Source: Pseudomonadota bacterium
GTDB lineage: Bacteria > Pseudomonadota > Alphaproteobacteria > Micavibrionales > CSBR16-224
Assembly (NCBI GenBank): GCA_013285465.1
Contig: CP053449.1
Coordinates: 2,070,735 to 2,134,734 of the forward strand
Reading direction: 5' to 3'
DNA: 64,000 bases
The position numbers were made by a program, and so were the translations under genes. This document shows, one piece after another, positions 51,660-62,189 of the stretch (positions are counted from its first letter, which is position 1; every line of letters starts with the position of its first letter). The notes under the pieces were generated by a model that was not told where the DNA came from, ran no database searches, and saw only the letters and a program-made list of their open reading frames with translations.

Positions 51660-51824
51660 GGTGAGGGTGCCACATATGCCGTGGACTGTCTTATCCGCAA
51701 GTGGCCCTGGTCTACCAGGTGGGCACCGCAATAACCGGACCTCGATCCGGCCAGAGGCAGCTCCCGAGCGAATGTTTGTCGGCCTCTGCGATATAGAATC
51801 TCACGCACACCGCAGCACCCTCAT
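51660..51824 (-). ncRNA. ssrS: 6S RNA
   Basis: About 165 bases on the minus strand between zapA and the folate cyclo-ligase gene, the classic ssrS place. The ends pair (GAGGGTGC / GCACCCTC). The 5' arm reads CTGCGGTGTGCGTGAG, aligned with the E. coli CTGAGATGTTCGCAAG. The 3' arm has CACGGCAT opposite the E. coli GGCGGCAT. The region of the central bubble carries a small hairpin CCTGG-TAGA-CCAGG, like the E. coli CCTTGAACC hairpin. A further stem CCGGA/TCCGG lies near the apex. The exact ends are estimated. 6S RNA binds sigma-70 RNA polymerase and lowers transcription in stationary phase. A covariance model search would confirm it. Confidence 0.82.
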
Positions 51825-57563: not shown

Positions 57564-58016
57564 TTATTCCGCGGCTTTATCGCCCGGTTTTTCTTCTGTT
57601 GTCTCGTCTGCCGTGTCCGCCGCAGCGCCGTCTTCCGCAACAGCCGCATCTTCGGCAGGCATCTCTGCGGTTTCTTCAACCGCTGCGCCGCCTTCAACCG
57701 CGCCTTTTTCTTCCGGCGCATCTTTATTCATTGCCGGTGCCTGCGGCGTTTTCACATCCAGAATGGAGCCGGATTGTTCCGCTGATCTGTGCGTCGCGAG
57801 AATCGCCAATGTCAGGCTTGTGATCACAAAAGCCGTTCCCAGCCATGTTGTCAGACGCGTCAATGCATCCGCCGTTGCACGCTGCGAGGCGAAATTACCC
57901 ATACCGCCGCCGCTGCCGCCGACGCCAAGCCCGCCGCCTTCCGAACGCTGCAAAAGCACCACCGCGATAATACCGAGCGCGACAATCAAATGTATGACCA
58001 GAACAACTGCTTCCAT
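57564..58016 (-). CDS. secG: Preprotein translocase subunit SecG
   Basis: A 150-residue protein. Two membrane segments (AVVLVIHLIVALGIIAVVLL and LGTAFVITSLTLAILA) flank the loop QRSEGGGLGVGGSGGGMGNF, the SecG signature. The C-terminal tail of about 70 residues is Ala/Glu/Asp-rich low complexity, longer than in E. coli SecG (110 residues) but common in alphaproteobacteria. It forms the SecYEG channel. tpiA, often upstream, is absent: the region upstream holds the mraZ control region. Confidence 0.93.
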   Translation of the reverse strand: MEAVVLVIHLIVALGIIAVVLLQRSEGGGLGVGGSGGGMGNFASQRATADALTRLTTWLGTAFVITSLTLAILATHRSAEQSGSILDVKTPQAPAMNKDAPEEKGAVEGGAAVEETAEMPAEDAAVAEDGAAADTADETTEEKPGDKAAE

Positions 58017-58168: not shown

Positions 58169-58200
58169 TCCCTTGCTTTCCCATCAATTCCCATGATATA
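58169..58200. promoter_or_regulatory. MraZ-type operator overlapping the probable dcw promoter
   Basis: Three direct repeats at a 10-base period: TCCCT (58169-58173), TCCCA (58179-58183), TCCCA (58189-58193), the reverse complement of TGGGA-N5-TGGGA-N5-AGGGA. This is the repeat layout described for MraZ binding upstream of E. coli mraZ. The sites overlap a plausible promoter, TTGCTT (58173-58178), a 16-base spacer and GATATA (58195-58200). Binding would block RNA polymerase, fitting autorepression of the dcw cluster. Confidence 0.65.
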
Positions 58201-58396
58201 CCATTATATACCATACAGCTGTACAGCGAATCATAAAAAACAACATGCTGACAGCAGAACGGATATGTCAGACCGATGGTTTTGGAGACGCAAATGACGT
58301 GCTTATCCGGGACATACAAGACAAAACGGGCAGACAGATAAGGGCGCAAAGCCCCATAGAATAAAGCGAAGATACACTTTTGGAGACGACAAGATT

Positions 58397-58443
58397 CAGG
58401 CCTTCACCCTTCTTTATAAAAGGGAGGGGGCCTGTTTTCTTTC
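58397..58443 (+). terminator. Terminator-like hairpin just before mraZ (possible attenuator)
   Basis: CAGGCC (58397-58402) pairs with GGCCTG (58429-58434), with an inner CCCTT/AAGGG stem, followed by TTTTCTTT. It stands 30 bases before the mraZ start and downstream of the putative promoter, so it would cut transcription of the dcw genes unless read through. Confidence 0.6.
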
Positions 58444-58472
58444 AATAATGCAAAGGGTTAAAGGCAGATAAA

Positions 58473-58928
58473 GTGGGCTTGTTTCTATCCACATATGTGA
58501 ACAAAATCGACGGCAAGGGACGCGTTTCCGTGCCGGCGACCTTCCGTGCCGCCCTTGCAGCCAACCCGTTTCAGGGCATTGTCGTTTTCCGTTCGCGCAG
58601 CCATCAGGCGCTGGAGGGATTCGGCATGGATGACATGACCGAGATTGCACAGCGCCTTGACCATTTCGACCTGTTTTCCGACACGCAGGATGATCTGGCC
58701 AGTATGATTTTTGCCGAGGCGCGGCAGCTGCCCTTTGACGGCGATGGCCGCATCGTACTGCCCGAGGATTTGCGCGGCTTTTGCAGCATGTCCGACAAGG
58801 CCGCTTTTGTCGGTATGGGACGGAAATTCCAGATATGGGAGCCGGACGCGCTTGAAAAACGCCTTGCCGATGCGCGCCAAAACGTTCAGGATAAGGGCTT
58901 AACCGTACCCCCGAACAAAAACGCGTAA
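58473..58928 (+). CDS. mraZ: Transcriptional regulator MraZ
   Basis: A 151-residue protein starting at GTG with AAAGG 9 bases upstream. It has two SpoVT-AbrB-like repeats: FLSTYVNKIDGKGRVSVPATFR, and later QLPFDGDGRIVLPEDLRGF with DKAAFVGMGRKFQIWEP. MraZ binds direct repeats upstream of its own gene and represses the division/cell wall cluster. Such repeats are seen 280 bases upstream. It is the first gene of the cluster and ends 7 bases before rsmH. Confidence 0.95.
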   Translation: MGLFLSTYVNKIDGKGRVSVPATFRAALAANPFQGIVVFRSRSHQALEGFGMDDMTEIAQRLDHFDLFSDTQDDLASMIFAEARQLPFDGDGRIVLPEDLRGFCSMSDKAAFVGMGRKFQIWEPDALEKRLADARQNVQDKGLTVPPNKNA

Positions 58929-58935
58929 GAAAAAC

Positions 58936-59910
58936 ATGTCTTCCTCAGATGCCCCGCATATTCCCGTCCTCCTGCGCGAGGTGCTGGAAGCCCTGTCACC
59001 GAAAGACGGCGGCACTTATGTTGACGGCACTTTCGGCGCAGGCGGTTACAGCCGCGCCGTGCTGGATGCGGCAAAAGACAGCATTGTCTATGCGATCGAC
59101 CGCGATCCGTCCGCCATTGTCACCGCAGAAAATCTGGCCAAGACCTATCCCGGCCGCCTGATTCCCGTGCGCGGCTGTTTCGGTGATATGGACAAACTTC
59201 TGGCGGATCAATGCCCTGACGGTGTCGACGGCATCATGCTGGATATCGGCGTCTCCTCCATGCAGATTGATGACGGCGCACGCGGTTTTTCCTTCCAGAA
59301 AGACGGAGCGCTGGATATGCGTATGGATCCCGAACATGGCGAAAGTGCCGCCGATCTGGTCAACACAATGGATGAGGAAGACCTCGCCAATCTGCTCTAT
59401 AAATACGGGGACGAGCGAAAATCCCGCCGCATTGCCCGCCGCATTGTCGAGGCCCGCGCGGAACAGCTCATCGAAACGACAGCGGCTCTGGCGGAGATTA
59501 TCCGCCGCGCCCTGCCGCCGAAACGCGGCGATAAAATCGACCCCTCCACCCGCAGTTTTCAAGCACTGCGCATCGCGGTGAATGACGAGCTGGGCGAGCT
59601 GGAACGCGGCCTTAACGCCGCCGCAAAAATCCTGAAACCCGGCGGTATTCTCGCCGTTGTCACCTTCCATTCGCTGGAAGACCGCATCGTGAAAAATTTC
59701 TTCCGCAGCTATGCCGCGCCGAAAACCCATATGTCGCGCTATGCGCCTGCAGAGCGCGCAGCAGAAGCACTGGCGGAGGCAAATGCCTTCCCCTTCCGGC
59801 TCCGGCAGCGCAAACCGGAAACCGCAAGCGATGAAGAAATCAAACGCAATCCGCGCTCCCGCTCCGCCAATCTGCGCTGGGCCATCCGGACGGAGACAGC
59901 ATGGCCATGA
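58936..59910 (+). CDS. rsmH: 16S rRNA (cytosine-1402-N4)-methyltransferase
   Basis: A 324-residue methyltransferase (also MraW). Marks are HIPVLLREVLEALSPKDGGT, motif I VDGTFGAGGYSRAVL, MLDIGVSSMQIDDGARGFSF, TRSFQALRIAVNDELGELE, and VTFHSLEDRIVKNFF. It methylates the decoding centre of the small ribosomal subunit and has been reported to counter MraZ toxicity. The end, ATGGCCATGA, overlaps the start of the next gene, so translation is coupled. Confidence 0.97.
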   Translation: MSSSDAPHIPVLLREVLEALSPKDGGTYVDGTFGAGGYSRAVLDAAKDSIVYAIDRDPSAIVTAENLAKTYPGRLIPVRGCFGDMDKLLADQCPDGVDGIMLDIGVSSMQIDDGARGFSFQKDGALDMRMDPEHGESAADLVNTMDEEDLANLLYKYGDERKSRRIARRIVEARAEQLIETTAALAEIIRRALPPKRGDKIDPSTRSFQALRIAVNDELGELERGLNAAAKILKPGGILAVVTFHSLEDRIVKNFFRSYAAPKTHMSRYAPAERAAEALAEANAFPFRLRQRKPETASDEEIKRNPRSRSANLRWAIRTETAWP

Positions 59911-60947
59911 AGGATATTTTCAATACGGCAAAAGAGGAAAATCTGTTCCACCGCAATCCGCGCTGGCTGGGCGGTGACGGCGCCTCCTCCGTCGATCTGG
60001 GTGATGGGCGGGTTTTATGGTTGTTCGGTGACAGCTTTATCGCCTCTGATGACAACAGCACCCGCGCCGATGCCACCATGGTGCGCAACAGCATCGCCAT
60101 CCAGACCGGAAACGACCCCGCAACGGCAAAAATGGATTTTTACTGGCGCGAGAATGAAAGCGCCCCGCCCTCCTCCTTTTTCCCCGAAAGCGGTGATGAC
60201 ACATGGTTATGGCCGGGGCACGGCATCCGGCTTGATGACGGCAGTCTGCTGATTTTCGCGATGCGTGTCCGTGAAACCGATCACGCCGCTGATGAACCGC
60301 CTGATCCGCTGGGTTTTGAAACTGTCGCGTACCTCGCCATATCCATTGATAATCCTGATGACAATCCTGCCGATTGGCATTTACAAACGCTGACCCCGCC
60401 CGACAATCAGGCCGGAATCATTTTCGGCGCAGGCGGTGTCGTAAAAGATGATGCGTATCTTTATGCGCTTGGCGTCCGCGACGCCGCTCCGGAAAAACCG
60501 GTTTATGCCGCACGCTGGTCTTTAGACAGTCTCGCAAAACAGGATATGAGCGGAGCGGAATACTGGTGCGGCGATAAATGGAAAAAAAATATCGATGATG
60601 CCGTACCGCTCTTTGAAAATGCACAGACGGAAATGTCGCTGCATTACGACCCGGATCGCAAGGAATATCTGTGTATCCAGACGAGCGGTTTCGGCGATAC
60701 CGCGCTGACAATCCGTTCCGCCGCCCGCCCCGAAGGATTATGGAGCGAACCGGAAACGATCTGCGACCTGCCCAAAAGCGAGAATAAAAACCTTATTTCC
60801 TATGCGGGCAAAGCCCATCCGCATCTAACGGCGGAAAACGGCACATTGCTGAGCTACGTTACGAACAGCTTGAATATTAAAGATATTTTTGACGATGAGG
60901 CATTATATTATCCGCGCTTCGTCAAATTTCCCGCCAAGAAATATTGA
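59901..60947 (+). CDS. DUF4185-like beta-propeller protein inside the dcw cluster
   Basis: A 348-residue protein without signal or TM. The opening RNPRWLGGDGASSVDLGDGR, then VLWLFGDSFIA, and repeated strand pairs (DDTWLWPGHGIRLDDGSLLI, YLYALGVRDAA, YVYAARWSLDS-like VYAARWSLD) fit five-bladed propellers related to glycoside hydrolase clans (DUF4185/DUF5005). Family members act on or bind carbohydrates, but catalytic acids cannot be fixed here. Two ATGs are possible (59901, 59907). The first has GGAGA 4-5 bases away; the second gives a 4-base ATGA overlap with the rsmH stop. It is not a normal dcw member. Confidence 0.6.
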   Translation: MAMKDIFNTAKEENLFHRNPRWLGGDGASSVDLGDGRVLWLFGDSFIASDDNSTRADATMVRNSIAIQTGNDPATAKMDFYWRENESAPPSSFFPESGDDTWLWPGHGIRLDDGSLLIFAMRVRETDHAADEPPDPLGFETVAYLAISIDNPDDNPADWHLQTLTPPDNQAGIIFGAGGVVKDDAYLYALGVRDAAPEKPVYAARWSLDSLAKQDMSGAEYWCGDKWKKNIDDAVPLFENAQTEMSLHYDPDRKEYLCIQTSGFGDTALTIRSAARPEGLWSEPETICDLPKSENKNLISYAGKAHPHLTAENGTLLSYVTNSLNIKDIFDDEALYYPRFVKFPAKKY

Positions 60948-61015: not shown

Positions 61016-61588
61016 TTGGATATGCCCGATACAACACCGCAGCACGAAATGTCCGAAGAGGCCGCCCTCGTCAATCTGAATCTCAGAATGGCCAACAGCC
61101 TGCATGACGTCTATGACATTTTAACGGGCGCGTTTTCTGACCTGTCTCCCGCCGATAAAGCCGCCGTTGTGCGCAAGGAATTTTTCGATGATCCGCCCAA
61201 TGACGAGGCGATGATCCGCGAAGTGCTGGATAACCTCCATAAAGCGGGAAACAGCCCCGATAATGCGCTGCAAACCTATATCATGGCGGAAGTTTTCGCC
61301 GCATTAGCGGAAAATAACGACCCTTTCCCACTCATTCCGCCTTTGCAAAAACATCTGGGCCGCCTGACGGATGCCGAATATGCCCGCCCCGCAAAACTGA
61401 GCGAAGCCTTTCAGGAAGCCATCATGGAAACGCTGGGAATTGAACCGCCGGATAACCAGAAAATGGCGATTGATGTCCGCAATCCCTTCGCGGCACTGGC
61501 AAAGCCGCAAAACGGCCATGATGCGGATAGCGCGCAACCCCCGACACATGCCAATCTGCGCCGCTATCTTGGCCGCAACGGCAAATAG
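61016..61588 (+). CDS. Unknown dcw-embedded protein, paralog A
   Basis: A 190-residue acidic, mostly helical protein without signal or TM. Start: TTG 61016 with AAGGGAAC 9 bases upstream. The following codons GAT ATG match the next gene's ATG GAT ATG, so the TTG fits the paralog better than ATG 61022. Shared with paralog B are a helix pair (MANSLHDVYDILTGAFSDLS), IPPLQKHLGRLTDAEYARP, DVRNPFAALA and a terminal HANLRRYLGRNGK. I do not recognise a family. It may bind a cell division or wall protein, judged only by its place. Confidence 0.65.
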   Translation: MDMPDTTPQHEMSEEAALVNLNLRMANSLHDVYDILTGAFSDLSPADKAAVVRKEFFDDPPNDEAMIREVLDNLHKAGNSPDNALQTYIMAEVFAALAENNDPFPLIPPLQKHLGRLTDAEYARPAKLSEAFQEAIMETLGIEPPDNQKMAIDVRNPFAALAKPQNGHDADSAQPPTHANLRRYLGRNGK

Positions 61589-61613: not shown

Positions 61614-62189
61614 ATGGATATGGATGATGACAGATTAAGCGGTCTTTCCCCCGCGGCAAAAGACATTGTTTTACGTATCGAAACCGTCACCCGTGCGCAG
61701 GAAGCACTGGAAATTTTGCGCACCGATTTTGCCGCCCTACCCGCTGACGAGCGTAAAACACTGGTCATGGATTATTTCCTTAAAGAAATGAAACTTGATG
61801 ATCCGCAATTTCTGACACTCGCCAGTGCCGAGCTGGCCGAACCGCCCCGCAATGATGATGCGCTTTTTGAAGGCTATGTTTTTGCCGAATTTTTTGCCGC
61901 CGTTGCCGAGGCCGAACATGACTCCCCCGTTATTCCCGCCCTGCAAAAATATGTCGGTGCGCTGACGGATGAAGAATACCGCCGCCCCGAAATATTATCG
62001 CTGGCCCTGCGTCAGGCGTTTCAAGAGGCGCTGCAAGGCACGGAAAGTGACGACAAGAATGCGGATATCATCCCCGGCGATGTGCGCAACCCTTTCCGCG
62101 CCGCCGCTGAAAAAGCCGCGCAGGATAACGGCCAGCCTTCCGTGCCGTCTCACGCCCATCTGCGGAACTATCTCGGCAAGAAAAAATGA
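61614..62189 (+). CDS. Unknown dcw-embedded protein, paralog B
   Basis: A 191-residue acidic helical protein with AAGGATA 7 bases before the ATG, 25 bases after paralog A. Matching blocks: IVLRIETVTRAQEALEILRT with DFAALPADERKTLVMDYF, IPALQKYVGALTDEEYRRP, GDVRNPFRAAAEKA, and terminal HAHLRNYLGKKK. The pattern strongly suggests tandem duplication. The basic YLGxxxK end after a variable linker looks like a short linear motif. Function unknown. The 156 bases to ftsL hold no further gene. Confidence 0.65.
   Translation: MDMDDDRLSGLSPAAKDIVLRIETVTRAQEALEILRTDFAALPADERKTLVMDYFLKEMKLDDPQFLTLASAELAEPPRNDDALFEGYVFAEFFAAVAEAEHDSPVIPALQKYVGALTDEEYRRPEILSLALRQAFQEALQGTESDDKNADIIPGDVRNPFRAAAEKAAQDNGQPSVPSHAHLRNYLGKKK

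Follow-up and report, generated by a model that had tools for sequence, protein, structure and literature searches.

The mraZ leader of the window (the whole 64,000-nucleotide stretch of alphaproteobacterial DNA analyzed here) probably has two outputs. A partial terminator ahead of mraZ would yield both a small RNA and read-through into the dcw cluster, in the manner of UpsM of Rhodobacter sphaeroides, and the arrangement would have been invented independently in the family of the window (f1). The region and its neighbors contain the following features.

57564 to 58016, minus strand: secG, the divergent neighbor (PF03840)
58169 to 58213, plus strand: MraZ-type operator of five CCC/ACC-A repeats (sequence, operator matrix, and DNA-level conservation in G002, G003, and G007)
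58173 to 58202, plus strand: putative mraZ promoter, with a -35 element TTGCTT at 58173-58178 and an extended -10 element TGaTATACC at 58194-58202 (alignment)
58210 to 58472, plus strand: predicted mraZ 5' leader of ~263 nt (predicted transcription start; operator-to-start distance)
58218 to 58255, plus strand: promoter-proximal hairpin with an A-rich loop, GAATCATAAAAAACAACAT (forms in the predicted folds of the window and L007)
58294 to 58341, plus strand: possible 15-codon leader open reading frame (ORF), MTCLSGTYKTKRADR, with GGAG 6 nt before its ATG (sequence)
58328 to 58342, plus strand: conserved box GGGCAGACAGATAAG (common to L007; partly to L009 and L008)
58364 to 58386, plus strand: conserved box AAGCGAAG...TTTTGGAGA, directly 5' of the terminator hairpin (four-member alignment)
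58397 to 58434, plus strand: terminator-like hairpin of 9 bp, a 1x1 internal loop, and 5 bp (z of -4.1; covariation; single match per genome)
58435 to 58443, plus strand: U-tract TTTTCTTTC; 7 of its first 8 bases are T (sequence)
58473 to 58928, plus strand: mraZ, with a GTG start, the first gene of the dcw cluster (PF02381; start by homology)

In the proposed mechanism, RNA polymerase would start at a promoter that is repressible by MraZ through the five operator repeats, repression being expected from knowledge of the family, and would transcribe the leader of ~263 nt. Most rounds would stop at the intrinsic terminator ~38 nt before mraZ and release a structured RNA of ~225 to 235 nt with a U-rich 3' end, and a minority of polymerases would continue into mraZ-rsmH-ftsL-ftsI. 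MraZ repression and the leader terminator would thereby stack two control points on the dcw cluster. The released RNA may be stable and could act in trans, and it is likely to be an Hfq client; the A-rich loop and U-rich end of the leader are compatible with, though no proof of, this role, and an Hfq gene is present in all seven family genomes.

Operator, promoter, and neighboring genes

The operator repeats TCCCT (58169-58173), TCCCA (58179-58183), TCCCA (58189-58193), TACCA (58199-58203), and TACCA (58209-58213) have a period of exactly 10 bp and, as read from the sequence, overlap the mraZ promoter. The original prediction of three TCCC(A/T) repeats at 10-base spacing on a likely promoter was right in spacing and overlap, but five repeats are present. 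Its assignment of the repeats to MraZ is backed by comparative data. An operator matrix was refined on 197 alphaproteobacterial mraZ upstream regions, the window locus among them; these were taken from the window's order, from 30 loci plus 80 further loci sampled across the class, and from 21 named genome records. The window site scored 45.7, compared with 6.3 for the best shuffled upstream region, and 192 of the 197 regions contained a site scoring >10; because the regions scored are those on which the matrix was trained, this contrast measures consistency across loci and is no independent test.

Alignment of the window with TTGAC...TATCCCAT at mraZ promoters elsewhere in the order and class makes TTGCTT and TGaTATACC a plausible mraZ promoter. 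Its placement depends on homology, since a scan for promoter-like sites misses this operator-linked promoter. Transcription would start near 58210, ~7 nt past the -10 element. No co-directional gene precedes the leader in the window, and the genes 5' of mraZ (secG and pyrG; a ykvA-like gene in g2) point away from it. With secG and pyrG divergent, transcripts that reach the terminator hairpin have only one evident origin, the mraZ promoter.

The MraZ-autoregulated dcw promoters of Escherichia coli and Mollicutes likewise have a direct-repeat operator over the first dcw promoter and encode MraZ directly downstream. The window differs from both in the repeats themselves, which are TCCCA/TACCA (TGGGA on the opposite strand) in five copies at 10-bp spacing. 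Furthermore, the 5' UTR from E. coli mraZ1p measures 38 nt (PMC5089854), whereas the window leader spans ~263 nt and has a terminator-like hairpin at its end.

L007 has a sequence just ahead of the promoter and 5' of the mraZ operator, TTAACCCAAATTTAA, that can be read as a CtrA-type site (TTAA-N7-TTAA); none is found at the corresponding place in the window. Between rsmH and the ftsL/ftsI region, the dcw cluster of the window includes a DUF4185 gene and two Pfam-less genes that resemble each other (59901-60947, 61016-61588, and 61614-62189), and the latter two have the C terminus ...HANLRRYLG... in common. A 6S RNA (73 bits) is located at 51663-51821 on the minus strand.

A long leader with conserved boxes

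From the predicted transcription start to the GTG at 58473, the leader measures ~263 nt, in agreement with the start codon originally predicted about 265 bases downstream. The operator-to-start distance in the window is 269 nt, against a class median of 90 nt and a 95th percentile of 198 nt (192 leaders). All six f1 members with mraZ (loci L006 to L011, including the window locus) have long leaders of 198 to 279 nt, with L009 at 198 nt, and five of them (L007, L006, L010, L011, and L008) are among the seven longest of the 192 surveyed in the class. Leaders in the other families of the window's order are mostly 50 to 170 nt long. Family f3 (e.g., G008, G014, G020, and G023) gave no mraZ match in an order-wide search of the listed genomes and may have lost the gene.

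The whole leader (58211-58446) is more stable than its shuffles (z of -3.4). Near the promoter, the hairpins of the window and L007 have nearly identical A-rich loops on replaced stems, a comparison of two sequences; the hairpin is weak in L009 and absent in L008. The box AAGCGAAG...TTTTGGAGA precedes mraZ in G000, G002, and G003, with a variant in G006. Elsewhere, its pattern has matches in 35 of 135 order genomes, which is near the rate of a reversed-pattern control, and these matches were rejected as further elements, as the contexts read looked like coding DNA.

The leader could alternatively be a conditional attenuator, in line with the original prediction that the layout would allow attenuation of the whole division cluster; read-through would then be switched by a ligand, by a protein, or by translation of the ORF at 58294-58341, and dcw expression would track a signal. 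We consider this rather unlikely. The boxes GGGCAGACAGATAAG and AAGCGAAG...TTTTGGAGA, just 5' of the terminator, do resemble a binding or pairing site, and the small ORF has a good Shine-Dalgarno sequence. In addition, two reports describe the sRNA StsR as pairing with the R. sphaeroides mraZ leader and affecting read-through (PMC8625941, PMC8307010), that is, as acting on the leader in the homologous position (PMC8625941). Nevertheless, the L007 counterpart of the ORF is shortened, being readable as MTIRADR, and the L008 and L009 leaders have no equivalent; a coding role is unsupported, and leader-peptide attenuation was rejected on this lack of conservation. Open frames running through the terminator from TTG GAG in L006, L007, and L009 were likewise discarded, as their peptides are mutually dissimilar. 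A search of Rfam 15 with the leader returned nothing at the gathering threshold, the best subthreshold match being sok at 24 bits versus the 59 required. Furthermore, the terminator 5' arm is predicted to pair only partly with upstream RNA (mean of 0.28 to 0.58 in L006, L007, and L009), and its partners differ among relatives, with no shared antiterminator pairing evident.

The terminator-like hairpin and its conservation

The hairpin at 58397-58434, CAGGCCUUC-A-CCCUU/AAGGG-A-GGGGGCCUG, has 14 bp and is followed by TTTTCTTTC. The segment 58385-58446 folds at -25.4 kcal/mol (z of -4.1), which none of 200 shuffles matched, and the hairpin ranks 6th in stability among the 293 candidates (hairpin plus T-run) that the two strands of the 64-kb window contain. 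A hairpin with a T-run had been predicted just before the ribosome binding site; hairpin and T-run stand, but they do not directly abut the likely site AAAGG (58460-58464), which is ~25 nt away. The GTG of mraZ follows the hairpin end after 38 nt. A short leader RNA would have its 3' end near the U-tract at 58435-58443. A bidirectional terminator serving an opposite gene was rejected, as no minus-strand gene enters the region and the tail on that strand is not rich in T.

The terminator region and the box upstream of it can be aligned in L006, L007, L009, and L008. Among the 14 hairpin pairs, 5 have changed on both sides across the four genomes, a number reached in 6 of 500 shuffles and compared with at most 2 in slid registers, although four sequences limit the statistics. 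Paired cells make up 94% of the hairpin alignment versus 35 to 59% in slid registers; the alignment was built on sequence and not fitted to structure, and the structure was the window's own fold. The arrangement of 9 bp, a 1x1 mismatch, and 4 to 5 bp is kept in L006 and L009, where substitutions have changed many stem bases (C-G to U-A, U-G to A-U, and C-G to A-U). The fold z score of -4.1 in the window compares with -3.3 in L007 (its U-tract was truncated in the test) and -4.5 in L009. Repeats and hairpin are both conserved in relatives, where a lack of conservation would have counted against the original prediction.

A covariance model (R1) built from the four f1 elements has one match per genome, always before mraZ, in four of the seven family genomes; as these four matches are its training set, they indicate single-copy linkage to mraZ and are not independent confirmation. 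The draft assembly G001 contains neither mraZ nor the element. Beyond f1, the only R1 match in 135 order genomes was L241 in G023, which looks like an ordinary gene-end terminator and was discarded. A search of a plasmid collection gave no match.

It is unlikely that the hairpin is instead a structural or stabilizing element of the mraZ mRNA leader, acting as an RNase barrier or insulator of the ribosome binding site and not as a terminator. Such a role would fit L008, of the same genus as L009, where the strongest hairpin (-30.8 kcal/mol) has a poor tail of only UAUUU, and L010, where the U-tract is short and weak. However, a classical U-tract directly abuts the stem in three of the four homologous elements (TTTTCTTT, TTTTCTGT, and TTTTTTAATTT), and the layout matches that of the proven UpsM terminator. 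No terminator-type hairpin was found in the L011 leader, and two f1 members with mraZ lack an alignable element, which only four carry. The poor tail of L008, the weak U-tract of L010, and the missing hairpin of L011 indicate that the terminator is not kept family-wide.

It is very improbable that mraZ has its own promoter past the hairpin and that the upstream promoter and terminator form an independent small-RNA gene: AATAAT (58444-58449) could serve as a -10 element, but no -35 element lies at the right spacing, the promoter scan found no site in the 38 nt past the hairpin (weak evidence, since the scan is also blind to the operator-linked promoter), these 38 nt show no conservation among L006, L007, and L009, all of which have the MraZ operator at the distal promoter, and a 5' UTR of only ~23 nt would be left.

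Comparison with UpsM and with other mraZ leaders

In R. sphaeroides, a 268-nt mraZ leader with a terminator yields UpsM, an abundant, Hfq-bound sRNA of 206 nt with Hfq and RNase E dependence and RNase E processing; read-through is ~1%, estimated at once in 100 (PMC5089854). UpsM is the only characterized precedent found (PMC5089854), and the short stable RNA that the original prediction offered as an alternative matches it. Weber et al. described this layout as exclusive to Rhodobacteraceae (PMC5089854), and searches of open-licence literature found no other report of an UpsM-like mraZ leader outside that group.

By its layout, the f1 leader would work like UpsM. Leaders of the UpsM type are long mraZ 5' UTRs (~170 to 270 nt) with a single distal promoter, and the operator-to-start distance of 269 nt puts the window near the top of the 192 leaders. 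In both, the mraZ promoter is followed by a leader of similar length (268 nt in R. sphaeroides and a predicted ~263 nt in the window), an intrinsic terminator, putative in the window, separates this promoter from mraZ, mraZ starts with GTG, no second promoter is detectable, and Hfq is encoded. The distance from the terminator end to the start codon is 84 nt in R. sphaeroides versus 38 nt in the window, and ~43 nt at the loci labeled Rhodobacteraceae that were used for comparison. The conserved boxes also differ, and the other families of the window's order are mostly without the feature. Finally, the UpsM terminator is proven, whereas its window counterpart is predicted from sequence.

In a strict scan (≥9 pairs, ≤46 nt, ≥5 T in an 8-base tail, and -20 kcal/mol or better), strong terminator-type hairpins occurred in 9 of 192 class mraZ leaders, versus 0.2 expected from dinucleotide shuffles. 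Five belong to the Rhodobacteraceae-type loci L027 to L031, three to f1 (L006, L007, and L009), and one to L096 of family f7, where the hairpin is promoter-proximal. L027 to L031, of the UpsM type known to terminate, served as positive controls; four are titled Rhodobacteraceae, Paracoccaceae, or uncultured Alphaproteobacteria, and L030 is titled Flavobacteriaceae, yet its leader and MraZ N terminus match those of the other four. R1 had no significant match in these five leaders, the best reaching 10.3 bits with an E value of 3.3 (R. sphaeroides UpsM itself lies outside this set), and no sequence homology to them was detected either.

The f1 element therefore looks like an independently arisen variant of the UpsM layout. 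It could also be an old trait, repeatedly lost and now too diverged to be recognized. An independent origin is simpler, given that R1 finds no significant match in the Rhodobacteraceae-type leaders and that most families of the order are without the feature. If true, a second case in a distant alphaproteobacterial order, unrelated in sequence to the first, would make premature termination before the division operon a recurring regulatory solution, and the f1 leader would be an independent system in which to ask what the leader senses and whether its RNA acts in trans. A further-reaching proposal is possible but doubtful: that the f1 element (box AAGCGAAG-TTTTGGAGA plus terminator) provides both signal-responsive dcw read-through and a trans-acting sRNA, RNA-level control of dcw having evolved at least twice in Alphaproteobacteria. 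A broader parallel is offered by SreA and SreB of Listeria, sRNAs derived from SAM riboswitches according to their citation in PMC5089854. There too, a leader that is terminated early gives rise to an RNA with a possible role of its own, but the window leader has no riboswitch match and no evidence of a ligand.

Two further mraZ leaders were observed. L213 (G264, family f125) has a 107-nt leader in which a hairpin (TCTTTTTA) lies 38 nt before the start; at -18.6 kcal/mol it falls just under the threshold of the strict scan, and it is possibly another independent case of a leader terminator. In family f7, the mraZ loci L095, L096, L101, L105, and L113 carry a conserved hairpin, ACAUGAUCRUGRGGG...CCCUCAUGUGAUC, directly 3' of the MraZ operator. 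Three of its pairs have changed on both sides and it is without a U-tract; it is a second mraZ leader structure in the window's order.
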